The position numbers and the translations under genes were made by a program. Below the pieces are notes generated by a model that did no database searches, was not told the origin of the DNA, and saw only the letters and a list, made by a program, of their open reading frames with translations. From NCBI GenBank assembly GCA_947165365.1, contig CAMVAF010000009.1, forward strand, positions 1 through 47,082: a stretch of DNA of 47,082 nucleotides. Direction: 5' to 3'. Shown piece by piece: positions 3,200 to 19,303 of the stretch; the stretch's first letter is position 1, and each line of letters opens with the position of its first letter. The DNA comes from an uncultured Clostridia bacterium. Its GTDB lineage: Bacteria > Bacillota_I > Bacilli_A > RF39 > UBA660.

Positions 3200-3576
3200 T
3201 CACTTTTTTATATCAAGAATTATTTTATTTGCCCAAGTTCTAAACTTAATCGCTTTTTTTAGAATTAACTCTAAATTCAATAGAAATAATCATATCAAGA
3301 TTATAGTATGAATATACTCTTTTAACTGAACGGTTTCCTTCTTTTTGAACTTGTGCAATTTTTGCACAAGTTGAATTTTCTTCTAATTCATCATCACTAT
3401 AAATATTACTAATATGTTTAATAATACCACTTCTATCAATAGAAAATAATTTTGTTAATACTTCAACGTTTAACCAAACATCTTCATTATCAAGTAATAC
3501 TTCAACTTGTATATTTCCATCTTCATCATTATAAAAATAATATATTTTTTTCATTTCCAACTATTTTATCAGTCAT
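3200..3576 (-). pseudogene. RhuM-family remnant, twice frameshifted and truncated
   Basis: The N-terminal third of a RhuM-like (virulence RhuM / Fic-associated) protein can be rebuilt across three frames. The ATG at 3576 has a GGGAGG ribosome site and starts MTDKIVGNE. A shift in an A7 run near 3550 leads to IYYFYNDEDG and a long middle part ending YYNLDMIISIEFRVNS. A second shift in another A7 run near 3253 leads to KKAIKFRTWANKIILD and a stop at 3200. Family members are about 330 residues, so at least half is missing. Both shifts are in homopolymers, so phase variation or sequencing error are alternatives for the shifts, but not for the missing C-terminal half. Confidence 0.65.
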
Positions 3577-3635
3577 TGTAACCTCCCTTTACATAATTAT
3601 TCATCAACTATTTGAACTATTTTTTGTTTAAAAGA

Positions 3636-3675
3636 AAACTCACGTTTTCCATTATATATTGGATTTTGTGAGTTT
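3636..3675 (-). terminator. Probable ancestral secA terminator, now displaced
   Basis: AAACTCAC (minus strand, starting inside the stop codon of the outermost SEC-C copy) pairs with GTGAGTTT, with a further TGGA/TCCA match, and is followed by TTTTCTTTT. The position directly behind a secA 3' end is what an original secA terminator would have before the islands inserted. It is now about 15.6 kb from the secA coding region. Confidence 0.6.
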
Positions 3676-3717
3676 ATTTACCACAACACTGTTTATATTT
3701 CTTACCTGAGTCACATG
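3674..3717 (-). repeat. Outer att-like copy of the secA 3' end (SEC-C motif and stop)
   Basis: These 44 bp match the last 44 bp of secA with about eight differences and encode PCDSGKKYKQCCGK and a stop in the same orientation. No complete gene is attached: a stop codon lies a few codons upstream in frame. With the copies at 6998 and 19260 it marks the outer boundary of DNA inserted at the secA 3' end, and it is followed by a terminator. Confidence 0.7.
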
Positions 3718-3787
3718 GAATAATTTACAATTTTTGAGTAATTTTTTCCTTTTAAATTGGCTTTTTTTATTTTAAAAATGCAATTTT

Positions 3788-3840
3788 TTGTTGAATAATT
3801 GTAAGTTTTTATTCAACAACGTATCTAATAACGTATCTAA
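3788..3840. repeat. Inner-end repeats of the small island: inverted repeat plus two CGTATCTAA
   Basis: An 11-bp perfect inverted repeat (TTGTTGAATAA/TTATTCAACAA, 10-nt loop) is followed by CGTATCTAA at 3820-3828 and 3832-3840, 12 bp apart. The same nonamer occurs as a pair at 6897 and 6908, at the other end of this island, in the same orientation. This is the pattern of arm-type integrase sites flanking an att core. The inverted repeat has no T-run on either strand, so it is not a typical terminator. Confidence 0.5.
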
Positions 3841-3850
3841 AAAAATTGAT

Positions 3851-4786
3851 TTAAATTCTGTCTGCATATGGCAATGACTTTATAAAATTTTCAATATAAT
3901 TATAATCAACTTTACCATCAGAAGTAGTCGGTAATTTTATTTTTGTTTGTTTAATTTTTCCTTGATTAAATTTTATTCCATAATTGTATCTAAAATTTTC
4001 CTTATTAATAATTGTCACAAAAAACAAACCAATATATTTATTCATTTTAAATTTTGGAATTAGCAACTCAACATGATCTGATGCTGAAAAACAATTCTCT
4101 TGATATGTACAATAGCCTAAAACAGCGCTATCAACAGTTAGAACATTTCCTTGTTCAGTAAAACAATCATAATATCCTGCTATCCCGTTATTTTTTGCTT
4201 GTGTTGTAACATATGGATATTTGCCTCTACCTATTTCCTCTAATTTTGTTAATGGTGTTGTAGAAGATCCTGTAACATCGAATAAATCTTCAATTTTGAA
4301 ATATTTCCAATTAGTAATATCAATTTTTTTGTTTGATGATTCATTATTTGTAGTAATAACATTTATATCCACATTATCTACCCACTTTGGTAAAGAATCC
4401 GGTAAAATTATATCAGCTAATGTTTTGTTTGCTTGTCTACCATAATTGTACTTATAGGCATTAAATTTTATTGCAGTGCACCAAAACAATTTTTCTTTTT
4501 TTGTCATCTCATATTTAGGCGTTAAAACAAATAAATCTCTTCCACTATAATATGGTTTTTCTTGCAAAAATGTAGATAGAACACTACCACCCGCAGCACA
4601 ACTAATAGTTCCTGCTGGTTGTGGTTCAATACCATCTATTAATTTTACTCTAGCAGATACTCCATTATTTTCTGCAGTTCTTGATACAAAATTTACGTAA
4701 TCTGGATCATTGTCATCTGCAATTTCACAATTAATCAATTCTAAATCTACACCGTATCTTACGTCAAAAATATCGCTAACTCTCAT
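3851..4786 (-). CDS. Restriction-modification specificity (S) subunit, BcgI-B-like
   Basis: This protein of about 311 residues has two target-recognition domains in tandem, each starting with a DLFDV/DIFDV-type motif (residues about 5 and 165) and each ending in a YNYG...LP segment (near 130 and 285). It resembles type I and type IIB S subunits and would give the DNA specificity to the methylase-nuclease encoded just upstream. The frame is open to a GTG at 4801, but GGAG 9 bp before the ATG at 4786 (MRVSDIFDVRYG) favours this start. The 11-bp overlap with the upstream gene implies translational coupling. The size matches BcgI B (about 340 residues). Confidence 0.85.
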   Translation of the reverse strand: MRVSDIFDVRYGVDLELINCEIADDNDPDYVNFVSRTAENNGVSARVKLIDGIEPQPAGTISCAAGGSVLSTFLQEKPYYSGRDLFVLTPKYEMTKKEKLFWCTAIKFNAYKYNYGRQANKTLADIILPDSLPKWVDNVDINVITTNNESSNKKIDITNWKYFKIEDLFDVTGSSTTPLTKLEEIGRGKYPYVTTQAKNNGIAGYYDCFTEQGNVLTVDSAVLGYCTYQENCFSASDHVELLIPKFKMNKYIGLFFVTIINKENFRYNYGIKFNQGKIKQTKIKLPTTSDGKVDYNYIENFIKSLPYADRI

Positions 4787-6587
4787 TTTCGCCATCTCCA
4801 CTACACACTAAATATCCCAAATATTCAGCAACAGTTTTCTCAAAATCTTTCTGAGATAACTTAGAATAATCAGTTTCCATATATGCTTCTGCCAACCATT
4901 CGTCTGAAGCAGATACTTTTTTATTTACTGATAAACCAATCTCTTCTTTTCTATTTCGATATAACTCAAGCCATCTTTTCTCAACATTTTTCCATGAATC
5001 TTTATATTTTTCAACCCTACCTAGGTTTTTTCTTTTTTCAAATCCATCATCTTTATAATAACCAAAGAAAGTAGTTTCATTAGGTGATTTATCATGTCTA
5101 ACTCCCAAATTAAATATCATACAACAAGCAACAACATTTGCTCCTGGATAAAACATATCAGATGGTAGTGAAAAAACTGCATCTAATGTATTTTCTTCAA
5201 GCATTTTTTCTTTAAAGATTTTTATATCACCCTTTGTTCCAATAGCACATTGCATTGGTAAGAGAACAGCTAATTTTCCTCTTTTTAATAGATTTGCAAT
5301 ATAATATACATAATGTAATCCTTTAGATGGATCAGTTGTTGTTTTACTATCCCAAGTTTCAACGTACTTTTGATTTGACTGTTTTCTTGTTGCATTATAT
5401 GGAGGATTCATTAGTACAGTATCAATATTTGCTGCTTTAATCCATTCTTCATTATCGAACATGCTTCCTTGCTTTATATTTGAATTTCCATCACCATGAA
5501 TTAACATGTTCGTAGTTGATAATCCAAATGCAACATCTTCATATTCTATTCCATAAATTTGGTTTAATTTTACATTGTCTTTTTCTGCTTTTGTATCACA
5601 ATCATCCATAGCTTCAGTCATAGCTCTAACTAAAAACGCACCACTTCCACAACATGGATCTAACACTCTTGAATTTCTATTAACATTTAAAACATGACAC
5701 ATAAACTGAGTAATATGATCTGGTGTAAATGCTTGATTCTTATCAGCTTTACCAACATATTTATTAAATGTAGTAAAGAATAGATTTAATAAATCTTGAC
5801 CTTGAGTACTTTGATCATTTATATAAGGCAATATATCTTTTTCAATTGAAGTTAATATTTCGGTCATTTGCTCATTTGTTAATTCCCTAACATCTTGTGA
5901 GCTAAGAACATTTTTGTCCAGCAGTACAAGTTTTTCTGCTTTATTTATATTATCATTTAATAGTTTTTCAAGTTTTTCTCTTACACCAGCTATTACTTGA
6001 CTTGTTGTTAAATTATTATAAACTAACCCGTTTTTTAACGCTAATAAACAGGTACCAACAAACTGGCTCCTTATTTTTTCTTTTATTCCATATTTGTGTA
6101 ACAATTCATTTAAATTATATGTATTTTGTATTACTTTTAACTTGTCATTTTTAGTACCAAAATAAATGTTTTCATATTCATCAAATGATTTTATTTTTCT
6201 TTCATCATCAATATTATTTTCAAATGAAATTCTTAAATCATCACCATACCAAACTTTGATTCTATCATCATTTGTATTTGCCAATATAGCTATTATTTTA
6301 TTATTACTCAATTCCTTTTCGCAATTAATATATGTCTGTATTTGTTTTATAAGTTCTTCATTATTCCACTTGCTAAAATCATCTTTTGTTTCTACTAAAA
6401 TTGATATTTTATCATTTGAAAATCTTAAATCGATAAATTGATAGACTCTGCCGGAACTATTTTCTTGATAATCATCAACATTTTTACCTATTTTACTCAA
6501 TGCCTTTTTATAACTAAATTCTTCATTTTCAATATTGCTTGTCAAATATTTTTCACCTATCGTTGATATAATCCTACTTCTTTTCAT
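4776..6587 (-). CDS. Fused restriction nuclease and N6-adenine methylase, BcgI-A-like type IIB
   Basis: This is a 603-residue protein. Residues 45-90 look like a PD-(D/E)XK nuclease: Asp53 in FIDLRF, then ILVETK (Glu66, Lys68) and a QIQTYI motif. A helical methylase N-terminal region follows. The N6_Mtase domain has motif I LDPCCGSGAF (about 308-317) and motif IV NPPY (about 392-395). Cleavage and methylation in one chain plus a separate S subunit is the BcgI (type IIB) plan, where cutting occurs on both sides of the site. No separate translocating R subunit (DEAD helicase) is present, which argues against classic type I. It overlaps the Phd-like gene upstream by 4 bp and the S gene downstream by 11 bp. 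Confidence 0.85.
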   Translation of the reverse strand: MKRSRIISTIGEKYLTSNIENEEFSYKKALSKIGKNVDDYQENSSGRVYQFIDLRFSNDKISILVETKDDFSKWNNEELIKQIQTYINCEKELSNNKIIAILANTNDDRIKVWYGDDLRISFENNIDDERKIKSFDEYENIYFGTKNDKLKVIQNTYNLNELLHKYGIKEKIRSQFVGTCLLALKNGLVYNNLTTSQVIAGVREKLEKLLNDNINKAEKLVLLDKNVLSSQDVRELTNEQMTEILTSIEKDILPYINDQSTQGQDLLNLFFTTFNKYVGKADKNQAFTPDHITQFMCHVLNVNRNSRVLDPCCGSGAFLVRAMTEAMDDCDTKAEKDNVKLNQIYGIEYEDVAFGLSTTNMLIHGDGNSNIKQGSMFDNEEWIKAANIDTVLMNPPYNATRKQSNQKYVETWDSKTTTDPSKGLHYVYYIANLLKRGKLAVLLPMQCAIGTKGDIKIFKEKMLEENTLDAVFSLPSDMFYPGANVVACCMIFNLGVRHDKSPNETTFFGYYKDDGFEKRKNLGRVEKYKDSWKNVEKRWLELYRNRKEEIGLSVNKKVSASDEWLAEAYMETDYSKLSQKDFEKTVAEYLGYLVCSGDGENES

Positions 6588-6835: not shown

Positions 6836-6864
6836 ATTATATCAAATGTAAGTACATTTGTAAA
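6836..6864 (-). promoter_or_regulatory. Promoter of the restriction-modification operon
   Basis: On the minus strand TTTACA (6859-6864) and a perfect TATAAT (6836-6841) are separated by 17 bp, with the Phd-like start codon 28 bp downstream. The spacer is almost entirely occupied by a palindromic operator. Confidence 0.65.
6843..6860. promoter_or_regulatory. Palindromic operator inside the restriction operon promoter
   Basis: CAAATGTA-AG-TACATTTG is a perfect 8-2-8 inverted repeat lying between the -10 and -35 boxes. A repressor bound here would block RNA polymerase. The likely ligand is the Phd-like protein encoded first in the operon (inference from autoregulation by this family). Confidence 0.6.
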
Positions 6865-6896
6865 TATAATTGTAATGACATTTTTAAGAAAAAAAA

Positions 6897-6916
6897 CGTA
6901 TCTAAATCGTATCTAA
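6897..6916. repeat. CGTATCTAA pair at the right end of the small island
   Basis: CGTATCTAA at 6897-6905 and 6908-6916, 11 bp apart (one helical turn), repeats the pair at 3820 and 3832 in the same orientation. The pairs lie 82 and 103 bp inside the two SEC-C copies that bound this segment, consistent with integrase arm sites. Confidence 0.5.
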
Positions 6917-6997
6917 AACAAAAAAATTGCAATTTCTTGCAACTTTTAATAATTTAGCAAATCCTTCGCAAACCCTTATATTTATTGGGTTTGAAGG

Positions 6998-7041
6998 CTA
7001 TTTACCACAGCACTGCTTATATTTCTTCCCACTACCACATG
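6998..7041 (-). repeat. Middle att-like copy of the secA 3' end
   Basis: These 44 bp match the secA 3' end with about six differences and encode SCGSGKKYKQCCGK and a TAG stop. The frame continues upstream, after one TAA, into about 30 Asn/Thr-rich codons with no similarity to secA. Downstream on the minus strand (6966-6997) a CCTTCAAACCC/GGGTTTG-AAGG hairpin follows. The copy is the junction between the 12.2 kb and the 3.3 kb inserted segments. Confidence 0.72.
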
Positions 7042-7400
7042 AAGTATTTTAGCTAGTATTATAGGTATTATCCATATTACTAGTATTTCCTTTATTTCCA
7101 ACAATAATAGTATTGGTAACATTAGTATTATTTGATACTATTTTTACTCATTTTTATAATAAATATTTAAATTATGCGAACAAAATGCCAACATTTTTAG
7201 CATACTGTTTGCATTGTTATCTGCAAATTAATTATACAATGATTATAAATACTAAATCAATATATTTTTACATTAATAAATAGAATAAAGTAGTATGTAA
7301 TTTATTCATTTTATGAAATAAAATAAAACTATATAAATCTTATAAATAAAAAAAGAGTTATTACATTATTTTAAAAATAATAAATATTTAAAAATTTAAT
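7042..7400. other. Non-coding island end with integrase arm-like repeats
   Basis: No gene is seen in these 359 bp. From 7042 to about 7140 the minus strand has an open Asn/Thr-rich stretch (NTNVTNTIIVGNKGNTSN region) in frame with the SEC-C copy but separated from it by TAA. At 7174-7182 and 7185-7193 are ATGCGAACA and ATGCCAACA, 11 bp apart, and at 7206-7214 ATGCAAACA on the minus strand. The same family of nonamers lies beside secA at 19099-19231. The rest is AT-rich and featureless. Confidence 0.5.
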
Positions 7401-7718
7401 TTACTTAGTTGCCAGATTTTTAATTAATTCAATAACCTTATTTTTATCTGATTGTGATAAAGAATAAAACTCTTCTAACTCATTTGATTTCCCAACTAAA
7501 TAATCAATAGAACATCCAAGTACTTCACTTAATCTATAAGCGATAGGCAATGAAGGAATTCTAACTTTTTGTTCATATGCTTCAATAGAAGAAGTGCTAA
7601 CTCCTACTAGATGTTGTAATTTTACTTGTGAATATCCTTTCTTTAAACGCAATCCCTTAAGATTTCCCATGTCTATTTTATCCTTGGAAATTCGGAATTC
7701 ATCCTTATTGTTTCTCAT
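7401..7718 (-). CDS. XRE-family helix-turn-helix repressor
   Basis: This is a 105-residue protein with a Cro/CI-type helix-turn-helix at about residues 15-70 (LRLKKGYSQVKLQHLVGVST, then EQKVRIPSLPIAYRLSEVLG and CSIDYLVGKS). The C-terminus is a short helix. ATG at 7718 is preferred because GGTGAT precedes it; the 12 upstream codons are not conserved-looking. It is transcribed away from the 353-residue membrane protein gene, and an inverted repeat in the shared promoter region suggests that it controls that gene and itself. Confidence 0.85.
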   Translation of the reverse strand: MRNNKDEFRISKDKIDMGNLKGLRLKKGYSQVKLQHLVGVSTSSIEAYEQKVRIPSLPIAYRLSEVLGCSIDYLVGKSNELEEFYSLSQSDKNKVIELIKNLATK

Positions 7719-7761
7719 AATATCACCACATATTATTATGAATAAAAAAAACAATAATAAT

Positions 7762-7793
7762 TCTTACACCAAGTAAGAGTTTTGTGATATAAT
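7762..7793 (+). promoter_or_regulatory. Promoter and operator for the membrane protein/lipoprotein pair
   Basis: A TCTTAC-ACCAA-GTAAGA inverted repeat (7762-7778) overlaps a TTACAC -35 box (7764-7769). A perfect TATAAT -10 box (7788-7793) follows after 18 bp. The divergent XRE regulator is the likely ligand (inference). Confidence 0.5.
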
Positions 7794-7814
7794 TATAATT
7801 GAAGGAGTGATTTT

Positions 7815-8876
7815 ATGGATTTCGATAGAAATTCTGCCAAAAATTTAAATAGTAAAGAAGCCAATAAAATACTTATTATGAGTGGGCTTGCATTTTATAT
7901 TATTAGTGGATTATTTTTAGTAATTGGCATAATTTCATTAATTGGTGGAGCTGAAGAACCAAGTATAGTATTATTTATTTCAGCATTCATACTTGCCATA
8001 ATAGGCATTAAGAATTTATTTCTTAGCAAAGAAAAGAAAGAAAAGTTTTTAACATCAAAACTAGTATCATCGGCAATAAAAGAAGAGAAGAAAAAAGGTC
8101 AATCATTTACAAAGGAGGAAATTGACAAAATAAAATTTGAATATGACCCAATATTTCACGATAAGATAGTTGCACAAGTACATAAAGAACAAGATACTGA
8201 ATATGCTACAAATGTGCAAAATGCAGAAAATAAAGTTAAAGATTTACAAAAACAGCGAACAAATGAAATTAATAGAATTGAAGAAGAAAGATGGCAAAGT
8301 GTTGGTGACAATAATTTAAAATATAATTTAACAGAAGGTAAAATTTGTATAAATGAAACCGAACATTTATTTACAAGTATAAAAGGTGCTGAAGTTAATA
8401 AAGAGGAATCATATAGAGTTGTAACAACAGAAGTTGGAAGGTCCAAAAAACATGTTTCATTAGGTAAAGCTGTAGTTGGAGGAGTATTGCTAGGCCCATT
8501 AGGTGCAATAGCAGGTGGCACAATGGGAAAAACCACTTCTAATGGAAGATCAATATCTAATTCAATTCCAACTTGTAATCATATTGGAGTAATTGTTGAT
8601 ATAGATGGGTTTAAAAGTGAAATAATACTACTTGATAATACTATTGATCAATCAACAAATGAATATAAACAATGTTTACAAAATGCAGAAGAAATTGTAT
8701 CTAAATTACATTATTTAGCAACACAACCTGTACCTGAAACCTTTACAAAAGTTGAAGAAGAACAATCCGTTCTTGATATTGATAAACAAATAGTTATGGC
8801 AAACAAAGAATTAGATATTGCAAAAAATAATAAACCAACATATGAAATACCAAAAAGATATTTAAATAATAAGTAG
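7815..8876 (+). CDS. Membrane-anchored protein with coiled coil and Gly-zipper, unknown function
   Basis: This is a 353-residue protein. Two hydrophobic segments lie at about residues 20-45 and 50-72. A charged coiled-coil region follows (roughly 75-165), then a folded domain with a glycine-rich hydrophobic hairpin, VVGGVLLGPLGAIAGGTMG (about 219-237), like Gly-zipper membrane-inserting segments. I do not recognise the family. GAAGGAGTGA gives a strong ribosome site. The stop codon overlaps the AGGAGG site of the following lipoprotein gene, so the two are one operon. The partner lipoprotein and the divergent repressor suggest a small envelope-acting accessory module. Confidence 0.75.
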   Translation: MDFDRNSAKNLNSKEANKILIMSGLAFYIISGLFLVIGIISLIGGAEEPSIVLFISAFILAIIGIKNLFLSKEKKEKFLTSKLVSSAIKEEKKKGQSFTKEEIDKIKFEYDPIFHDKIVAQVHKEQDTEYATNVQNAENKVKDLQKQRTNEINRIEEERWQSVGDNNLKYNLTEGKICINETEHLFTSIKGAEVNKEESYRVVTTEVGRSKKHVSLGKAVVGGVLLGPLGAIAGGTMGKTTSNGRSISNSIPTCNHIGVIVDIDGFKSEIILLDNTIDQSTNEYKQCLQNAEEIVSKLHYLATQPVPETFTKVEEEQSVLDIDKQIVMANKELDIAKNNKPTYEIPKRYLNNK

Positions 8877-9796: not shown

Positions 9797-11065
9797 TTAT
9801 AATTTAAAATTTATTACTTCGTTTATAACTTCTAAATTAATATTTTTATCATATAAATTAACTGCATTTTTCTTTGAATTATCTGTACTTCTAATATAAT
9901 AATTTTCAGTTGTTTCTACTTTTTTATGGCCTAAAATGTCTGCAACATCACGAATTTCTGTACCATTATTTAGTATTTTTGTTGCATAACTTCCTCTTAA
10001 ATCGTAGAACCTACATTTATTAATTCCTAATTGTGTATGTATTATTCTAAATGGATATCTTATTAAATCTGTTCCTACATAATTACCGTTATTTTGTGTA
10101 AAAACAAGATTAATATTTTGGTATTTTAAACCATTTTTATTTAAAACTATTCTTGTTTCTACTAATTTTCCATATTCATTTTTAACATTTTCTAAATGAT
10201 AATATTTATAATCTTTGCCATATAATTTTTTTAACTTATCTTGCATATTTTTATAATTTGTTAATGCTTCTTTTAATATGTTTCCAATATATATTTTTCT
10301 TTTACCATTAGTTGTTTTAGTAGTACCTAAATACCATCTACCTAATTTATCTTTAGGTTTATCATAAACATTATGATTAACATATATAATATTATTATCT
10401 AAATCTATATCTTCCCAAGTAAGTGCAAATACTTCTCCTGTTCTCATACCTGTAAATAAAGAAACAAGGAAAGCACAAATAAATGTAGGATTAGTTCTAA
10501 ATCTCTTTAAAATAATGCTTATTTCTTCTTCAGTATAAAGATGTTTAATATTATCATCTATTTTTTCTATTTTTGGTAATCTAATTGTTAAAGCAGGATT
10601 ATATTTTATTATGCCATATAAGTTGCATGCATCTCTAAATGATCCCTTAACTACTTTTAAAATGTTTTTAAAGTATTCTCTTGAAAAATCATATTCATTA
10701 ACTATTTTACTAATATAATTATTAAGTGCTACATTAGTTATACTTGATATTTTATATTTACCAAGTTTTGGTTTAATATATTTTTCTATAATTACTTTAT
10801 AAGCTTCAATAGTATTATATTTTAGATTGCTTTTACAATAATTATTAAGCCAATAATCTAAATAATCTGAATAAGACAACTTTGATTCTTTAAATGGTTT
10901 ACCTGCATTAAAATATTCAGTATAAGCAATATTTCCAGCTTCTATTGCCTCATTTTTGCTTTTAAAACCACTTTTATTTATATACTTCCTTTTACCTTTT
11001 ACTCTAGCTATTTCAAATTGATATTGATATACATTTCCTCTTTTAGTTATTCTTAAATTAGCCAT
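9797..11065 (-). CDS. Tyrosine recombinase (integrase), copy 1
   Basis: This is a 422-residue phage/ICE-type integrase. An N-terminal arm-binding domain (RITKRGNVYQYQFEIA) is followed by a SAM-like core-binding domain (about 65-165) and the catalytic domain. Visible catalytic residues are Arg in TGMRTGEV, Lys in TTKTTNGKR, Arg in FYDLRGSYAT, His in LGHKKVETT and Tyr in ENYYIRS. The first His of the usual HxxR motif is Tyr here (YxxR), a tolerated but less common change. It is clearly paralogous to the integrase beside secA. An excisionase gene lies 2 bp upstream. Which att site it uses is unclear. Confidence 0.9.
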   Translation of the reverse strand: MANLRITKRGNVYQYQFEIARVKGKRKYINKSGFKSKNEAIEAGNIAYTEYFNAGKPFKESKLSYSDYLDYWLNNYCKSNLKYNTIEAYKVIIEKYIKPKLGKYKISSITNVALNNYISKIVNEYDFSREYFKNILKVVKGSFRDACNLYGIIKYNPALTIRLPKIEKIDDNIKHLYTEEEISIILKRFRTNPTFICAFLVSLFTGMRTGEVFALTWEDIDLDNNIIYVNHNVYDKPKDKLGRWYLGTTKTTNGKRKIYIGNILKEALTNYKNMQDKLKKLYGKDYKYYHLENVKNEYGKLVETRIVLNKNGLKYQNINLVFTQNNGNYVGTDLIRYPFRIIHTQLGINKCRFYDLRGSYATKILNNGTEIRDVADILGHKKVETTENYYIRSTDNSKKNAVNLYDKNINLEVINEVINFKL

Positions 11066-12758: not shown

Positions 12759-13247
12759 TCAATTACTTTTATTAATAATTATATGATTAAAAACATTATT
12801 CTTTTTTTGCAAAATTTCTTTTATAAATACAGGTCTTATATCATATTTATCCATTGAAGAAATATCAATCCACTTAAAATCATGCTTAATTATGCCACCT
12901 TTATCATTTTCAAACAATGTAAAATCATCACTATTAATCTTTTTACAAGGCTTAACTAAATAGTAAAAAGAAATTTCATGAATTTTTTTAGAAAACTTGT
13001 TTATAAAATAATTTTCAGCAACTCCTAAATATTTTTTTATTTTAAAATCTATACATATTTCTTCTTTTAATTCTCGTAAAACAGCTTCTTCTGTTGTTTC
13101 ACCTAATTCTACATAGCCACCTGGTAAACATAAAAAACCACTGTCATCCATATCTGTAACTAATATTTTATTATTTTGAATGATTATGCCTGAAACTCGC
13201 ATTTTAAAATTTAAATCATCAGTTTTTATTTTCACATCAATATTCAT
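12759..13247 (-). CDS. Nudix hydrolase
   Basis: This is a 162-residue protein with a full Nudix box, GGYVELGETTEEAVLRELKE then EICI (about residues 40-64), including the catalytic REUxEE glutamates. Such enzymes cleave a nucleoside diphosphate linked to another group. The start is ATG 13247 (AGGAAAT ribosome site); a TTG seven codons upstream is less likely. It is the last gene of the six-gene operon, 10 bp behind the P-loop kinase gene. I infer that it removes or trims a nucleotide-linked product made by the enzymes encoded upstream. Confidence 0.85.
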   Translation of the reverse strand: MNIDVKIKTDDLNFKMRVSGIIIQNNKILVTDMDDSGFLCLPGGYVELGETTEEAVLRELKEEICIDFKIKKYLGVAENYFINKFSKKIHEISFYYLVKPCKKINSDDFTLFENDKGGIIKHDFKWIDISSMDKYDIRPVFIKEILQKKNNVFNHIIINKSN

Positions 13248-13257
13248 AATTAATTTC

Positions 13258-13932
13258 CTATTTAACAAGTCTTTTTTCTTTATCTTTCAATAGGACATTT
13301 ACCACATAGTCATCCAACATTTCATGAAATTCTGACTCAGATCCATTATTTTCTATTAAAAATGAAAATGGTTCTTCGGTATCTCTATCTCCTACTTCAA
13401 TACAATCATTTCTATATACTAAATCTCTATATTCAAATGTTTCCTTTTTTTGTTTTGAAGAATCCTTTTCAATAGTTTTTTTAGTAACATCTTCAAGTGT
13501 TACAGTTAAATCTGCTTTTCTAGATGATCTAGTTGAATCTGTTCGTAATCTTGTATATTCCCTAAAAATTCTCTTATCAAAATCAGCATCAATATATAAT
13601 ACTCCTAGATTATTTCCTAAAAGTGAATATAAATATTTAATACTTTTTACGCCATACATAGTATCCATAATAACAACTTGCTTATCACCAGACATTTCAT
13701 CAGCTTTTTTTATATACCTATCCCAAAATGATTCAAAATTATTTTGGTACTCATAGTCATACCATTCCTGAAAATCTAAATCAGTATTAGATTCCTTATA
13801 AACCTCTGGAAAGATATTTCTTATTTTTAAATGTTTTATTTCATCTCCATAATTATCAATAATATAATTTATTCCCCCACTTTTACCTGACTCTGATGGT
13901 CCTGTAACAAATATAAATTTTTTATTTTTCAT
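13258..13932 (-). CDS. P-loop kinase, guanylate-kinase-like
   Basis: This is a 224-residue protein with a Walker A P-loop at its start (FVTGPSESGKSGG, residues 7-19) and a QVVIMDTMYG strand that could be Walker B. An Arg-rich segment (RIFREYTRLRTDSTRSSRKA, about 120-140) resembles the lid region of small-molecule kinases. It is related to nucleoside/nucleotide kinases, but the acceptor is unknown. It overlaps the gene on either side (11 bp with the upstream gene) and is therefore coupled to the operon. Confidence 0.7.
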   Translation of the reverse strand: MKNKKFIFVTGPSESGKSGGINYIIDNYGDEIKHLKIRNIFPEVYKESNTDLDFQEWYDYEYQNNFESFWDRYIKKADEMSGDKQVVIMDTMYGVKSIKYLYSLLGNNLGVLYIDADFDKRIFREYTRLRTDSTRSSRKADLTVTLEDVTKKTIEKDSSKQKKETFEYRDLVYRNDCIEVGDRDTEEPFSFLIENNGSESEFHEMLDDYVVNVLLKDKEKRLVK

Positions 13933-14716
13933 TTTTTCTCAATTCCTTTCTTATTATTTTTATTGGGTGATTACTAAAATCATTTATTTCATTTTCCCCA
14001 TATATTAAATTTCTTACAGCATTTGCCATATCCTTATTTTCTATTGATTGCAGCATTATATCTATTAATTCTTCTAAATAATTATGCGGTATATCTTTAA
14101 TTTTAAAATTCCATGCACTATTTCCAAGAATAATTGTAGCAAGAGAATTTGCCCTCATTCCCTCATAGTTAAAACTTCTATAAATTGTTCTTTTTTTCTG
14201 ATCTAAATCATTGTGAGCAACAAACAATGTATCATTTTCTAAAATTTTTGGTGGATCAAAATCAAATAATAAGCCATCTTTTGAATAATTCCATATTGAA
14301 GAATCAATACCAATATTTTTTTCATGAGAAAACTCTAAACTTTGAATTCCTTCTAATGCCTTCTCAAATATCCACTTCATTTCTTTATACAAAACAATTC
14401 TATTATCACACAAAATTCTACTTTCATCAATTCTTTTTGAAATTTCAAATAATTCATTATCTTTAGCAATAAGTCCACATAGTTTATTACATAATACATA
14501 TTTTTGCAGTGACTCATAGTATCTTATCAATAAAGAAGCGTAATTTCCTTTATATCTATTTTGTATTTTTGCCATATTAAGTTTCTTATAAAAAAATTCA
14601 TCAATACACCCATTTACTAATGTATAAGAAGTAATGGGTTGAAAATCTTTATGACTATCTATGATTATTTTTTCTTCAATTCCTTTTGGTAATTTTTCAT
14701 TTTCATATATTATCAT
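13922..14716 (-). CDS. Kinase-like protein of the six-gene operon
   Basis: This is a 264-residue protein. The segment LEFSHEKNIGIDSSIWNYSK and the following GLLFDFDPPKIL (about residues 130-162) look like the catalytic loop and metal-binding DFD/DPP motif of APH-like small-molecule kinases, with NIGIDSSIWN in place of the HGDxxxxN loop. The N-lobe is short. It may be a divergent kinase or a catalytically altered homologue. Its start shares ATGA with the stop of the GalT/HIT-like gene, so the two are translationally coupled. Confidence 0.5.
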   Translation of the reverse strand: MIIYENEKLPKGIEEKIIIDSHKDFQPITSYTLVNGCIDEFFYKKLNMAKIQNRYKGNYASLLIRYYESLQKYVLCNKLCGLIAKDNELFEISKRIDESRILCDNRIVLYKEMKWIFEKALEGIQSLEFSHEKNIGIDSSIWNYSKDGLLFDFDPPKILENDTLFVAHNDLDQKKRTIYRSFNYEGMRANSLATIILGNSAWNFKIKDIPHNYLEELIDIMLQSIENKDMANAVRNLIYGENEINDFSNHPIKIIRKELRKNEK

Positions 14717-15843
14717 TTTCCCAACTCCCTAAATATATTTTTCTCTAAAGTTTTAACATGCTCGTTAATTTGTCCTTCTTCACATACCTTTATGCTTGGC
14801 CTAACTAAAGGGCTAAAATTTTTCATAAATATATTGTCTCTATTTGAATAATTTCTATTAATAATTAAAGAATAAAGGTCAATAGGATTATCATTAGTTT
14901 CATTTAATGGAATAAACTCAGAGGTAATACTTGGTACCAATGAAATCATATATTTATTTCTATACATTGTAAAATATATAAAATTTACAACAGCTGGAAT
15001 CATATTACTTTTTAAAAGCATATCTTCTTCATTTTCTATATATACAAAACTGTTCTGTAATTTTTTGCCCCTTGTAAAATAGTAATTGATTATATCCTCA
15101 TACGATTTTATATATAACTTTAAATCATCAATCTTCATACTTGAATAATCAAATTTAATTCCTTCAGGTATTTTTAATAATGCACCACAATTTGGAATTT
15201 TCTTATTTATATTCTCGGTAAATCGATCATAAGGTCTCTCTAAAACATAATTGCATCCCAGTTTTTTCTCATCTATATCTTTAATCATTAACTCAACATG
15301 CCCATGTATACATAATTCTGATTTTGATATTTGATTAAATAATATATTTACACCGACTAAATCTTTTCCTAAAAATCCATTTTGAAGAAAATTTAATAAA
15401 TCATCTTGAATATCAACTAATTCCATAATATAATCATTAGACAAATCTTGAACATTTTCAATATGCAATTTTTTTCTATCCTTTAAATATATCATTAATC
15501 CACAAGGAAAATATGGAAAAGTAGGTATACACAATTCCCAATATTTATATTTGGATGAATAATATGTTAAAGGAATTCTTTCAAAGTCATCTGAACATAA
15601 TTTGCAATGATTATATTGATTTCTTCTATCCGTATATATTGAACCATCAAGTATTTTTTTAACCCTTATTAGTTCATCTTTAGATAAATTATCTTTATTA
15701 AAATATCGTCTAATTAATTCATTATTAATTACTCTTTTCTTTTTTTTATTAGTGTAATTAACATATATCAGTTTTGAAAAAGGCTTATCATTTATTTCAT
15801 CAATTCCTATATCAAAGAACGTTTGATATTTTGTACTTTCCAT
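14713..15843 (-). CDS. GalT/HIT-like nucleotidylyltransferase or phosphorylase
   Basis: This is a 376-residue protein. It has a CKLC zinc-ligand pair near residue 80, an N-I-L-F-N-Q-I segment near 165, and the histidine motif CIHGHVELMI near 178, a variant of the HxHxQ/E motif of galactose-1-phosphate uridylyltransferases and ATP adenylyltransferases. The central His would carry the nucleotidyl group. The substrate is unknown. ATG 15843 is favoured over the GTG at 15852 because AAAGAG then lies 10 bp upstream. It follows the nucleotidyltransferase gene by 16 bp and overlaps the next gene by 4 bp. Confidence 0.7.
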   Translation of the reverse strand: MESTKYQTFFDIGIDEINDKPFSKLIYVNYTNKKKKRVINNELIRRYFNKDNLSKDELIRVKKILDGSIYTDRRNQYNHCKLCSDDFERIPLTYYSSKYKYWELCIPTFPYFPCGLMIYLKDRKKLHIENVQDLSNDYIMELVDIQDDLLNFLQNGFLGKDLVGVNILFNQISKSELCIHGHVELMIKDIDEKKLGCNYVLERPYDRFTENINKKIPNCGALLKIPEGIKFDYSSMKIDDLKLYIKSYEDIINYYFTRGKKLQNSFVYIENEEDMLLKSNMIPAVVNFIYFTMYRNKYMISLVPSITSEFIPLNETNDNPIDLYSLIINRNYSNRDNIFMKNFSPLVRPSIKVCEEGQINEHVKTLEKNIFRELGK

Positions 15844-15859
15844 AATACTCACACTCTTT

Positions 15860-16543
15860 CTAGTTATACAATTTTTTTAATAACTTTTTAGATGATGATA
15901 ATAGTTGGTCCTTATAATCTTCATTGTTTTCCTTAAAACAATGAATAAAAGTTTCATAATCAAACAAATCAAAATCATATTTTTCAGAGTAAAGTTTAAA
16001 AACTTCTTCATAGTTTTTAGGATAATATCCATCTATTATTAATATAATTTTCATTAAAATATATATTGACTTGTAAAGGTCACGTATTTGCTGTTTTGTT
16101 AAATTTTCATACAAGAAATATCTTTTAAATATGTGCATTCTTTCATTTAAATATAACTGATGTACTTTTTTTAATTCTTCTGAATTTATCACTGGCAAGC
16201 AAAAAGTATCTTTTAAATATTGAATTTCTATTTCATTATTTTGCAATAAATACAAATGATAGTATGTTTTAGGATCAATTCTTTTATTATAAAATTCTTC
16301 TTTATCATATATTGTCGTTCCTATTTTAACATCATATAAATTTGAAATACATTTTAGTTTTTCAATTATTTCGCAATTAATTTTTTCGAAAACCAAAATT
16401 ACATCTATATCACTCCAATTTTCAATAACCTTTCCACTACAACTACTTCCAATAACTAAAATCATATCAAGTTCATTACCAAATGTTGATTTTACTTTTT
16501 GCACATACTCATAAATAATTGACGAATATTTGTTCTTAATCAT
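15860..16543 (-). CDS. Pol-beta-type nucleotidyltransferase
   Basis: This is a 227-residue protein with the nucleotidyltransferase motif GSSCSGKVIENWSDIDVILV (about residues 32-51): the GS dipeptide and the two metal-binding Asp residues (DID). The helical C-terminal half resembles aminoglycoside or small-molecule nucleotidyltransferases more than tRNA enzymes. It could transfer a nucleotidyl group to a small molecule or a protein. It overlaps the APH-like gene by 8 bp and has a GGGGG ribosome site inside it. Confidence 0.8.
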   Translation of the reverse strand: MIKNKYSSIIYEYVQKVKSTFGNELDMILVIGSSCSGKVIENWSDIDVILVFEKINCEIIEKLKCISNLYDVKIGTTIYDKEEFYNKRIDPKTYYHLYLLQNNEIEIQYLKDTFCLPVINSEELKKVHQLYLNERMHIFKRYFLYENLTKQQIRDLYKSIYILMKIILIIDGYYPKNYEEVFKLYSEKYDFDLFDYETFIHCFKENNEDYKDQLLSSSKKLLKKLYN

Positions 16544-17660
16544 ATTTTAATACCCCCATTTCTTGAACTATATTTGTAACAGAACCATAAAAATCATCAG
16601 TTATATTACTATAAAAATAACATATTAAAAATAATGAATAATAATAATCACTTTTTTCCATTGTATTTATATTAAATACACACATTAATCTCATAACTAT
16701 ATAATATTTAATTTCTGAATTAATAATTATATTATTTTTCTTGAGAATATTTATATAATCTAAAACATATTTTTTTCTAATATTGCTTGTTATAATATTT
16801 GAATTTATTACTAATTCATCATCATTTTCATCGAATGTTAAATTTGGCTTAAACAAGTGATAATTATTTATAGCTTGAACATGTGTTCCATATGAATTAG
16901 GATGATAATGTGGGCAGAAATAATTATCATACAATAACGTTGATATAATAGTAATAGCAACTTCCGAAACTATTGAATTATAACCTGCTGTAACTAAATC
17001 AAAAAAAGATGGTTTTATTGAAATATTTAATGTATTGGGATCACCTTGTGTTAACACGCTTGAATGGATAATATTAGATTCTTCAAAATAATGAATTGTT
17101 TCACTTAATATATCACTAATGGATACATTAATGTTATTATTAATTATAATTTTTTTATTACTTTTAATTAAATCTTTGTACCACACTTTTAATCTCGTAT
17201 TTATTCTTTCAATAAAGAATATATCATTTGCACTTTTGTCTAAATTTACTGTTTTTTTTGAATAAATTGTATCATATACAGATAAAACATTATTTAAATA
17301 AAACAAGTTTTGTTCAGATATTAATTCACTTTTATCATTTTCAACTAATATATCATTCAGCAATCCTGAATTTTCTGTTACTATTTTATCAAATTCATAT
17401 AAAATAATATACATTTTACTAGATAGTTTTTTGGTAAAAACAATATTATTTATAGGTAAGTTACCATTACAGGCAAAATAACCATTAATTTCCTTTAAAA
17501 AATTATCGCCGTCAATAATTTTAAAGAAACATTTTTTATTATTAAACATAACACTACCATTAATTGAAAAATTTTGTGTATTAATTGTTAAAACTTCTCC
17601 TATCTCATTATATATTTGATGTTTTAAATCTAGTAACATTTTTTTATTTAGCTTTTTCAT
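16536..17660 (-). CDS. APH-like small-molecule kinase heading the six-gene operon
   Basis: This is a 374-residue protein with an aminoglycoside/choline-kinase-like catalytic region: VLTQGDPNTLN (catalytic Asp and Asn, with Gln replacing the usual His of HGD) followed by SFFDLVTAGYN (metal Asp in the DxG-like position), about residues 203-226. A CPHYHP segment further on is unusual for the fold. It probably phosphorylates a small hydroxylated molecule. ATG 17660 has GGGGATGA upstream; the preceding GTG is less well placed. A consensus promoter between it and the integrase gene drives the operon. Confidence 0.65.
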   Translation of the reverse strand: MKKLNKKMLLDLKHQIYNEIGEVLTINTQNFSINGSVMFNNKKCFFKIIDGDNFLKEINGYFACNGNLPINNIVFTKKLSSKMYIILYEFDKIVTENSGLLNDILVENDKSELISEQNLFYLNNVLSVYDTIYSKKTVNLDKSANDIFFIERINTRLKVWYKDLIKSNKKIIINNNINVSISDILSETIHYFEESNIIHSSVLTQGDPNTLNISIKPSFFDLVTAGYNSIVSEVAITIISTLLYDNYFCPHYHPNSYGTHVQAINNYHLFKPNLTFDENDDELVINSNIITSNIRKKYVLDYINILKKNNIIINSEIKYYIVMRLMCVFNINTMEKSDYYYSLFLICYFYSNITDDFYGSVTNIVQEMGVLKYD

Positions 17661-17689
17661 CACATTATCATCCCCATAAATTGCTTTTT

Positions 17690-17718
17690 ACTTTACCATT
17701 TTTTACCATATATGTCAA
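17690..17718 (-). promoter_or_regulatory. Promoter of the six-gene operon
   Basis: On the minus strand a perfect TTGACA (17713-17718) and TAAAGT (17690-17695) are separated by 17 bp, directly behind the integrase stop codon. The sequence contains two direct ATGGTAAA repeats, 10 bp apart, across the spacer and -10 region, a possible activator or repressor site. Confidence 0.55.
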
Positions 17719-17721
17719 TGT

Positions 17722-19035
17722 TTAATCAAAATAAACTTTATCCACAATTTGGGGGATATCTAATGTATTAGTATAATTTTCAAACTTATTAACAGTATCT
17801 GTTTCCATTTTATCAGTTACTCGAACATAAATATTATAAGTAGTTTGTATTGATGAATGACCTAGTCTTTTGGATACTGCTTTAATATCTGCACCTTGTT
17901 CAATTAATCTTGTAGCATGAGTATCACGAAAATCATGAAATCGACAATTAATACCTAACTCATAATGAATAACTTTAAAAGCATATTTATCAGAATCAGT
18001 TCCTAAATACTGCCCATTTTCTTTTACAAATACTAACTTTGCTTCTGGTAAGGCAACATCAAGTTCTGCTTTAGCATCAAGTATTTTTATTTCTTCTTTA
18101 TTAGTTATTTCATTAATTACTTTTTTTTCATAATGCATTAAATAACTATCTCCATAAAACTTTTTATTTTCTTCTTGCTCTTTTTTATATTCCTTTAATG
18201 CTTTAACCAATGTGTCACCTATTGATATTGTCCTATTACTTTGAGGATTTTTACAACTACCATAATACCAAACAGTTGTTGAATAACCCTTAGTAATATT
18301 TTTTCTTTTTGGTAATCCATATTGATTCTTTTTAATAATATTTTTATTAATCGTAATAGTTTTCTTTTCAAAATCAACACAATCCCATGTAAGAGCATAT
18401 ACTTCTGATACCCTCATACCTGTATAATATGCCGTTAAGAATGAATAATAAATAGAATGTGTATCTTTAAACCTATCTAATATTCTTTCTATTTCTTCTT
18501 GGGTAAAAATATGAGCTGGATCTTTGTTTAACATTTCATATCTTGGTGCATGTACTTTTTCTGCTGGATCATCATTTATATAATTTAATGTATAACACGC
18601 GTATTTGAAAGAACCTTTTATTACTTTCAAAATACTTGCTATATAACACTTAGAAAAAGACTTTTGAACATATATATCATTAATCATTTCTTGAAGTAAT
18701 CTCGCATCTATTTGTGATAACTTATAATGACCTAATCTTGGTTTAATATGTACTTTAATAATATTACTATATGATACTACTGTTGAATACTTTAGATTTA
18801 AGTTAGCATAATTATCGATCCAATAATCTAGAAAATCAGCATAAGACATATCCTTTGTTTTCATTACCTTACCACGATTATAATAATCATTATAAGCCTT
18901 TATGCCCGCTTCATGTGCCTCATTTCTTGTCTTAAAGCCACTTTTGTTTGCATACTTTCTCTTACCATCTACTTTTGCAATCTCAAATTGATATTGATAA
19001 ACCTTACCCCTTTTTGTAATTCTTACATTTGCCAT
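17722..19035 (-). CDS. Tyrosine recombinase (integrase), copy 2, adjacent to secA
   Basis: This is a 437-residue integrase with the same N-terminal arm-binding domain as copy 1 (RITKRGKVYQYQFEIAKV). It has a complete catalytic set: Arg in TGMRVSEV, Lys in the beta-hairpin near SCKNPQSNRT, His and Arg in FHDFRDTHAT, His in LGHSSIQTT and Tyr in YNIYVRV. ATG 19035 is chosen because AGAAGGAA precedes it; 12 upstream codons are unlike the family. It lies 225 bp from the secA stop, with arm-like repeats between, so it is the best candidate for the enzyme that inserts at secA. Confidence 0.92.
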   Translation of the reverse strand: MANVRITKRGKVYQYQFEIAKVDGKRKYANKSGFKTRNEAHEAGIKAYNDYYNRGKVMKTKDMSYADFLDYWIDNYANLNLKYSTVVSYSNIIKVHIKPRLGHYKLSQIDARLLQEMINDIYVQKSFSKCYIASILKVIKGSFKYACYTLNYINDDPAEKVHAPRYEMLNKDPAHIFTQEEIERILDRFKDTHSIYYSFLTAYYTGMRVSEVYALTWDCVDFEKKTITINKNIIKKNQYGLPKRKNITKGYSTTVWYYGSCKNPQSNRTISIGDTLVKALKEYKKEQEENKKFYGDSYLMHYEKKVINEITNKEEIKILDAKAELDVALPEAKLVFVKENGQYLGTDSDKYAFKVIHYELGINCRFHDFRDTHATRLIEQGADIKAVSKRLGHSSIQTTYNIYVRVTDKMETDTVNKFENYTNTLDIPQIVDKVYFD

Positions 19036-19053
19036 AAAATATTTCCTTCTTTC

Positions 19054-19085
19054 TACAAAAATAACTAGCACTCAACATGCTAGTT
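19054..19085 (-). terminator. Terminator or attenuator between secA and the integrase
   Basis: AACTAGCA and TGCTAGTT form an 8-bp perfect stem with a 7-nt loop, followed on the minus strand by TTATTTTTG. It would stop secA read-through before the integrase gene and replace the displaced native terminator. Confidence 0.6.
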
Positions 19086-19259: not shown

Positions 19260-19303
19260 CTATTTACCACAACATTGCTTATATTTCTTACCACTTCCAC
19301 ATG
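19260..19303 (-). repeat. att-like secA 3' end, proximal copy
   Basis: These are the last 44 bp of the functional secA gene, covering the codons of the CGSGKKYKQCCGK zinc motif and the TAG stop. They are repeated at 6998-7041 and 3674-3717 in the same orientation. The longest identical blocks with the middle copy are CTATTTACCACA and TGCTTATATTTCTT, so the crossover should be in one of these. Confidence 0.7.

Follow-up and report, generated by a model that had tools for sequence, protein, structure and literature searches.

A recurring six-gene cassette of kinase-, nucleotidyltransferase-, HIT/GalT-like and Nudix-type genes in small-genome Bacilli, with a possible part in making a nucleotide-linked small molecule

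The window, that is, the whole stretch of 47,082 nucleotides analysed here, comes from a small-genome Bacilli bacterium and holds, at 12759-17663, six tightly packed open reading frames (ORFs) on the minus strand, named genes A to F in the order of reading. They form one recurring unit, called the cassette below. An initial annotation, made from the DNA letters, had described them as an operon whose products might synthesize and control a nucleotide-linked small molecule. The genes and the promoter-like site in front of them are as follows.

16536-17663, minus strand: gene A, APH-type small-molecule kinase with the catalytic loop QGDPNTLN and the metal-binding Asp of FFDL; an ATG at 17660 is an equally possible start.
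15860-16543, minus strand: gene B, nucleotidyltransferase of the Pol-beta fold (MNT/ANT-like) with the motif GSS-x10-WSDID.
14713-15852, minus strand: gene C, HIT/GalT-superfamily-like protein with invariant HGHxE and HCKxC motifs.
13922-14716, minus strand: gene D, kinase-like protein of uncertain activity with the motif (D/E)(T/S)(A/S)IWN...FD(F/L/Y)DPPK.
13258-13932, minus strand: gene E, P-loop kinase (CPT/CoaE/zeta-like) with the Walker A motif GPSESGKS.
12759-13268, minus strand: gene F, Nudix hydrolase with a probable start at 13247.
17690-17718, minus strand: promoter-like site upstream of gene A, TTGACA-17-TAAAGT, with TG before the -10 element (extended -10).

The short overlaps and gaps initially reported for the six genes were borne out by the computed spacings: A and B overlap by 8 bp, B and C are 7 bp apart, and overlaps of 4, 11 and 11 bp follow at C/D, D/E and E/F, respectively. 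The relatives of gene F start at an ATG equivalent to 13247, which is probably also its true start in the window, and the E/F overlap then becomes a 10-bp gap. Relatives suggest that gene C perhaps has an inner start as well; if it starts at this inner ATG, the B/C gap is 16 bp. The transcription signals proposed at first fared less well. The single promoter finds a good candidate in the site at 17718-17690, but promoter-like sites are not enriched in the region, where 44 were found against 64 expected from shuffles. The single terminator was not confirmed, as a terminator scan downstream of gene F found none, and the RNA fold behind this gene is average, its stability not exceeding that of shuffled sequences.

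Recurrence was followed with a profile of gene C in the family to which the host belongs, where eight of 386 sampled genomes, in eight genera, gave a match. Genes B, C, D, E and F occur together in all eight carriers, and gene A adjoins them in six; the G588 copy has no gene A beside it, the contig of G626 breaks off within gene B, and the G488 copy of gene A is broken. Gene order is kept or nearly kept across the carriers, locus L017 having the order A-B-F-C-D-E. Genes D and E make up one fused ORF in five carriers (L004, L021, L015, L016 and L019) and remain two ORFs in L017, L018 and the window; all five loci with the fusion add a histidine phosphatase between the fused ORF and F. As the flanking genes vary between loci and the chromosomal positions differ, the block appears to move, or to be retained, independently of its position. 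The initial annotation had staked its idea of a system on the six genes recurring together outside this one element, which they do, and on their not matching a known resistance or sugar-nucleotide pathway, of which none turned up in profile, defence or literature searches.

The class and phylum samples gave no relative outside the host's family among the matches listed. Neither the sequence nor the profile of gene C, nor the D-E profile, found relatives in viral contigs, and 72,556 plasmids held no copy of C or D-E. For phages, where gene C was not searched, the D-E search gave chance-level E-like matches only. Two further matches were discarded: that of gene C in G244, a marginal one with E 1e-4, covers 71 residues and is interrupted by a stop codon, and that of gene D in G277 overlies an unrelated predicted peptidase frame.

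Several carriers show rearrangements or particular neighbours. In L017 (5011-6939) and in a related cluster, L060 (7811-9751), gene A is fused behind a domain of about 300 residues without a Pfam match, which by eye recalls BtrH-type cysteine-protease-like acyltransferases. Upstream of the B-F-C-D-E block of L018, an ASCH-like start runs into a carbamoyltransferase C-terminal domain (6864-7829), in what looks like a recombined remnant. An orphan gene C in L020 (626-2894) lies beside a zeta-toxin-like kinase and a fragment recognized by eye as an IS30-like transposase. Behind the G354 copy (L004, 16164-18660), DUF1848-like, macro-domain and sirtuin-like genes, also named by eye, stand in a row.

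The window copy itself is a chimera. With the L004/L015 type its genes A and F share 52-53% and 62-64% identity, respectively, as against 35% and 42-45% with L017/L018. The reverse holds for B, C, D and E, whose identities with L017/L018 come to 53%, 56-58%, 53% and 61-65%, falling to 35-47% with the other loci. A and F match one lineage and B to E another, and recombination has exchanged A and F. That the set was kept complete despite this swap argues that the genes work together.

The gene A protein has the residues expected of APH-type kinases, namely the Lys-Glu pair (K48 and E58, in 10 of 11 relatives), the (H/Q)GDxxxxN loop and the metal-binding Asp (D208, N213 and D222, in all 11). Its QGD loop alternates among relatives with the ordinary HGD, and the APH-like kinase with a QGD variant recognized at the outset is upheld by these conserved residues. 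The window protein has no Pfam match, the cut-off of PF01636 (APH) not being reached; a relative in L036, found by the gene A profile at E 9e-45, matches Pfam APH with E 0.002 and 18.4 bits, below the cut-off of 23.2. Similarly, gene B scores 18.0 bits with NTP_transf_2 (PF01909), just under the cut-off of 21, the best relative reaching 20.3. Its relatives also match Polbeta, and the GS-x(n)-DxD motif is intact, as GSS...WSDID, in all of them. The Pol-beta-type assignment stands in spite of the low score. Gene F encodes a true Nudix protein, as first described: it matches PF00293 with 49.2 bits against a gathering cut-off of 21.1, and its Nudix box (GX5EX7REUXEEXGU) reads GGYVELGETTEEAVLRELKEEICI, with all catalytic Glu and Arg residues present and the last Gly changed to Cys. 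Its relatives are 42-64% identical.

Gene C is harder to place. Its HCKxC and HGHxE motifs are invariant in an alignment of nine sequences, and the last position of HGHxE is Glu rather than the Gln or His of the HxHx(Q/H) active-site motif. AlphaFold models of genes C and D were built from two sequences each, those of the window and L005. That of gene C is poor, with a predicted local distance difference test (pLDDT) score of 42.6; a Foldseek search of the PDB with this low-confidence model returned almost exclusively HIT proteins at the top, the best being the Ap4A phosphorylase Rv2613c with E 2e-3, and none reached 1e-3. The HIT profile matches marginally, in one member. The GalT model of Pfam (PF01087) matched in six control genomes but, at E<=10, in none of the five carrier genomes searched, and GalT was therefore dropped as the exact family label. 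The GalT/HIT-like enzyme with an HGHVE motif of the initial annotation is thereby narrowed to a protein that seems to resemble the HIT/GalT superfamily, on the strength of the invariant motif and the matches of a poor model, and that is not a recognized GalT.

Gene D, initially called a second kinase-like protein, may be kinase-like, its activity being uncertain. A motif conserved in eight sequences, (D/E)xxxxN...FDxDPPK, is spaced like a kinase catalytic loop, but no profile match to a kinase was obtained, and hhalign comparisons with gene A and with APH were negative. The fold search gave no kinase match either, with a model (pLDDT 38) too poor for this to count. The idea that genes A and D encode homologous kinases was dropped, as the profile comparison gave it no support. 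For gene E the designation as a P-loop kinase holds: the Walker A motif GxxxxGK(S/T) is present as GPSESGKS or GTSESGKS and invariant in all relatives. In Pfam, gene E is weakly similar to CPT, zeta toxin, AAA_18 and CoaE-type kinases, and one relative exceeds the Zeta_toxin cut-off. The gene E profile also finds the kinase of a Bradyrhizobium phosphonate cluster, with E 1.6e-7. A PDB sequence search with A, C and D-E returned no true homologue, the matches to ACE2 and titin being due to chance.

Further clusters in the host's family were found with a profile of a fused P-loop/E-like/nucleotidyltransferase protein, built from L036 and a Lactococcus relative. On its 4.2-kb contig, L036 (574-4253) encodes an APH-type kinase and a triple fusion of thymidylate-kinase-like, E-like and nucleotidyltransferase parts; another of its proteins, without a Pfam match, resembles by eye a PaaK-type ligase. 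On the Lactococcus plasmid, a Nudix-P-loop-E-nucleotidyltransferase fusion lies beside an APH-like gene and a hexapeptide acetyltransferase. The clusters in the host's family combine A-, B-, E- or F-type proteins with other enzymes, which in L060 (7246-13777) are phosphopantetheinyl transferase, thymidylate-kinase-like and NTP_transf_5 proteins. A family 2 glycosyltransferase (GT2) and a short-chain dehydrogenase/reductase (SDR) occur with HAD in L062 (4036-9343), a GT2 and an SDR fragment in L064 (6111-12625), and a radical SAM protein with a CoaE-GT2 fusion in L065 (4895-9538). These unannotated clusters of the host's family (L060, L062, L064 and L065) include GT2-nucleotidyltransferase fusions and a HAD-kinase fusion. 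Phosphopantetheinyl transferase, NTP_transf_5, GT2 and radical SAM were seen in the related clusters only. An E-type kinase is also held by the phosphoenolpyruvate (PEP) mutase cluster, a phosphonate cluster, of the Bradyrhizobium plasmid p1S06B.

Found as they are among biosynthetic enzymes, the relatives of A, B, E and F point to small-molecule or sugar biosynthesis more than to defence. Of the roles first proposed, the synthesis of a nucleotide-linked small molecule is thereby supported indirectly, while its variant as a defence signal gained no support.

The cassette is flanked by features of integrating elements:

17722-19071, minus strand: tyrosine recombinase (integrase), PF00589 101 bits, between secA and gene A.
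9797-11065, minus strand: second, related tyrosine recombinase, PF00589 69 bits, on the far side of the cassette.
19260-19303, no strand assigned: probable attachment site at the secA 3' end, the last 44 bp of secA, repeated elsewhere in the window.
6998-7041, no strand assigned: second copy of this repeat, 91% of 44 bp, where the element probably ends on its far side.

The integrase lies 58 bp from gene A, and the two integrase genes are 71% identical over 300 nt. In another species of the genus, an integrase stretch with 75% DNA identity is also found behind secA. Since the secA end is repeated and integrases lie behind secA, the 3' end of this gene is a probable attachment site, and the cassette is cargo of an integrating element, in line with the initial annotation. 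A third, weaker repeat lies at about 3675-3717, and the three copies suggest two tandem insertions at this site. secA as an integration target is perhaps interesting in itself. The neighbouring insertion (3246-6587) carries restriction-modification genes (a IIG/type I methyltransferase and a specificity subunit) and a short PDC-S05-like ORF; a separate restriction subunit was not seen in this interval. An AbiD gene lies near the G440 copy.

The reading that we prefer, with a probability of about 0.42, is that the cassette is a mobile unit for making or activating a small molecule that is phosphorylated and linked to a nucleotide, and that might be sugar-, cyclitol- or nucleoside-like. The catalytic motifs of A, B (with its two Asp), C, E and F are intact; the reactions, their order, the substrate and the product are what we infer. 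Kinase A would phosphorylate a hydroxyl of a host-derived precursor, and B would move a nucleoside monophosphate (NMP) from a nucleoside triphosphate onto the phosphorylated compound. C might then form a His-NMP intermediate at the second histidine of its HGHxE motif and either hand the nucleotidyl group on to a different phosphorylated acceptor or yield it to phosphate. D and E, proposed as an acting pair because they are fused in five genomes, would further phosphorylate the product. Finally F, together with the histidine phosphatase in other copies, might strip pyrophosphate or phosphate and so finish the product or clear dead ends.

Several points weigh against this reading. The cassette has no scaffold-building enzyme or transporter, and it must therefore depend on a borrowed precursor or cooperate with genes of the chromosome; the pairing of a scaffold enzyme with tailoring genes that marks a classical biosynthetic gene cluster was not found in it. 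Besides the poor model of gene C, which has no Pfam match, the Gln of HPHxQ is replaced in it by Glu, and in gene D five of eight sequences have Glu in place of the catalytic Asp. The related clusters are without C and D, so that their product may differ.

Beyond this, the cassette may tentatively be seen as encoding a pathway not yet described, which integrating elements have spread among Bacilli with tiny genomes and which yields a new nucleotide-linked metabolite (an antibiotic, a signal or a cofactor) through an unrecognized HIT-superfamily transferase with HGHxE and a fused kinase pair; in this specific form the proposal is rather doubtful. The profile and defence libraries and the literature, the latter consisting of open-licence papers, yielded no described system with this set of genes. 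Small-genome hosts rarely keep spare metabolism, and a conserved mobile block of six enzymes likely pays for itself. If a nucleotide-linked metabolite is indeed made, the cassette offers a testable route to a new natural product or modification, gene C becomes a candidate branch of the HIT/GalT superfamily, and unannotated clusters of the family, the Lactococcus plasmid and the phosphonate cluster would be linked by shared kinase and nucleotidyltransferase modules.

Four other explanations were ranked, with glycan decoration first, followed by drug inactivation, defence and RNA-end processing. For glycan decoration, A and B would make a nucleotide-activated phospho-alcohol or sugar, to be attached to glycans of the cell surface by a glycosyl- or phospho-transferase that is their partner but lies elsewhere in the cell; the model would be lic-type phosphocholine or PntC phosphonate tailoring. 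Relatives of B are fused to GT2 and occur with SDR, HAD, APH and Nudix genes (L061, L062, L063 and L064), and a kinase with a nucleotidyltransferase is the known logic of phosphocholine and aminoethylphosphonate tailoring (PMC6697681). The explanation is nevertheless unlikely, as neither the cassette nor its close relatives include a glycosyltransferase, LicD or flippase gene, and LicC and PntC have a different nucleotidyltransferase fold.

Antibiotic inactivation, in which A and D would phosphorylate, B nucleotidylate and the CPT-like E phosphorylate drugs, would suit a mobile cargo with an APH-type A, a B like ANT-type nucleotidyltransferases and an E with weak CPT similarity. It is made improbable by the conservation of the set, whose genes stay together and in order in different genera and include a D-E fusion, and in which C, F and the phosphatase would be superfluous for resistance; moreover, the NCBIfam resistance models gave no match, and C and D-E are absent from the plasmids searched. 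Anti-phage defence, by a nucleotide signal or by nucleotide depletion, would fit the patchy distribution, the restriction-modification genes carried by the same integrase-flanked island, the AbiD gene of G440 and the zeta-toxin-like kinase that adjoins the orphan gene C. The cassette has no effector or sensor domain, though, and the search of PADLOC-DB yielded no complete system, only weak single-gene matches of candidate families (Nudix and nucleotidyltransferase). Other copies are flanked by housekeeping genes and, with the biosynthetic surroundings of the A, B and E relatives, this leaves defence with a slim chance. Repair and recapping of RNA or nucleotide ends, with E as polynucleotide kinase, B adding NMP and C and F decapping or deadenylating, is the least probable: HIT (DcpS/aprataxin-like), Nudix (RppH-like), P-loop kinase and Pol-beta nucleotidyltransferase families all occur in RNA end processing, but known APH-type kinases and histidine phosphatases act on small molecules, and profile scans found no RNA-binding or ligase domain.

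Among known systems, the lic phosphocholine and PntC phosphonate pathways proceed from a kinase or a phosphorylated precursor to a nucleotidyltransferase (PMC6697681). The cassette shares with them this succession and the nature of a mobile or patchy accessory; it differs in that LicC and PntC are not of the Pol-beta fold, that it has no transferase to a glycan, and that nothing in those pathways corresponds to C, D, E or F. The p1S06B phosphonate cluster of Bradyrhizobium likewise combines an E-type kinase with a gene of a nucleotidyltransferase family, and a motif in it suggests an APH-like product, but there is no PEP mutase near the window cassette and the other enzymes differ. With the HIT superfamily (Rv2613c, FHIT and HINT) and GalT, gene C has in common an HxHx(Q/E) motif after a beta-beta-alpha-beta-beta pattern, and these are the nearest structures of its weak model; it is set apart by HGHxE in place of HPHxQ, by the lack of a Pfam GalT match and by an extra C-terminal region. 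Finally, the catalytic residues of A and the GS...SDxD of B recall the APH and ANT families, from which the two proteins differ in falling under the curated cut-offs and in being always embedded in a multi-gene set.

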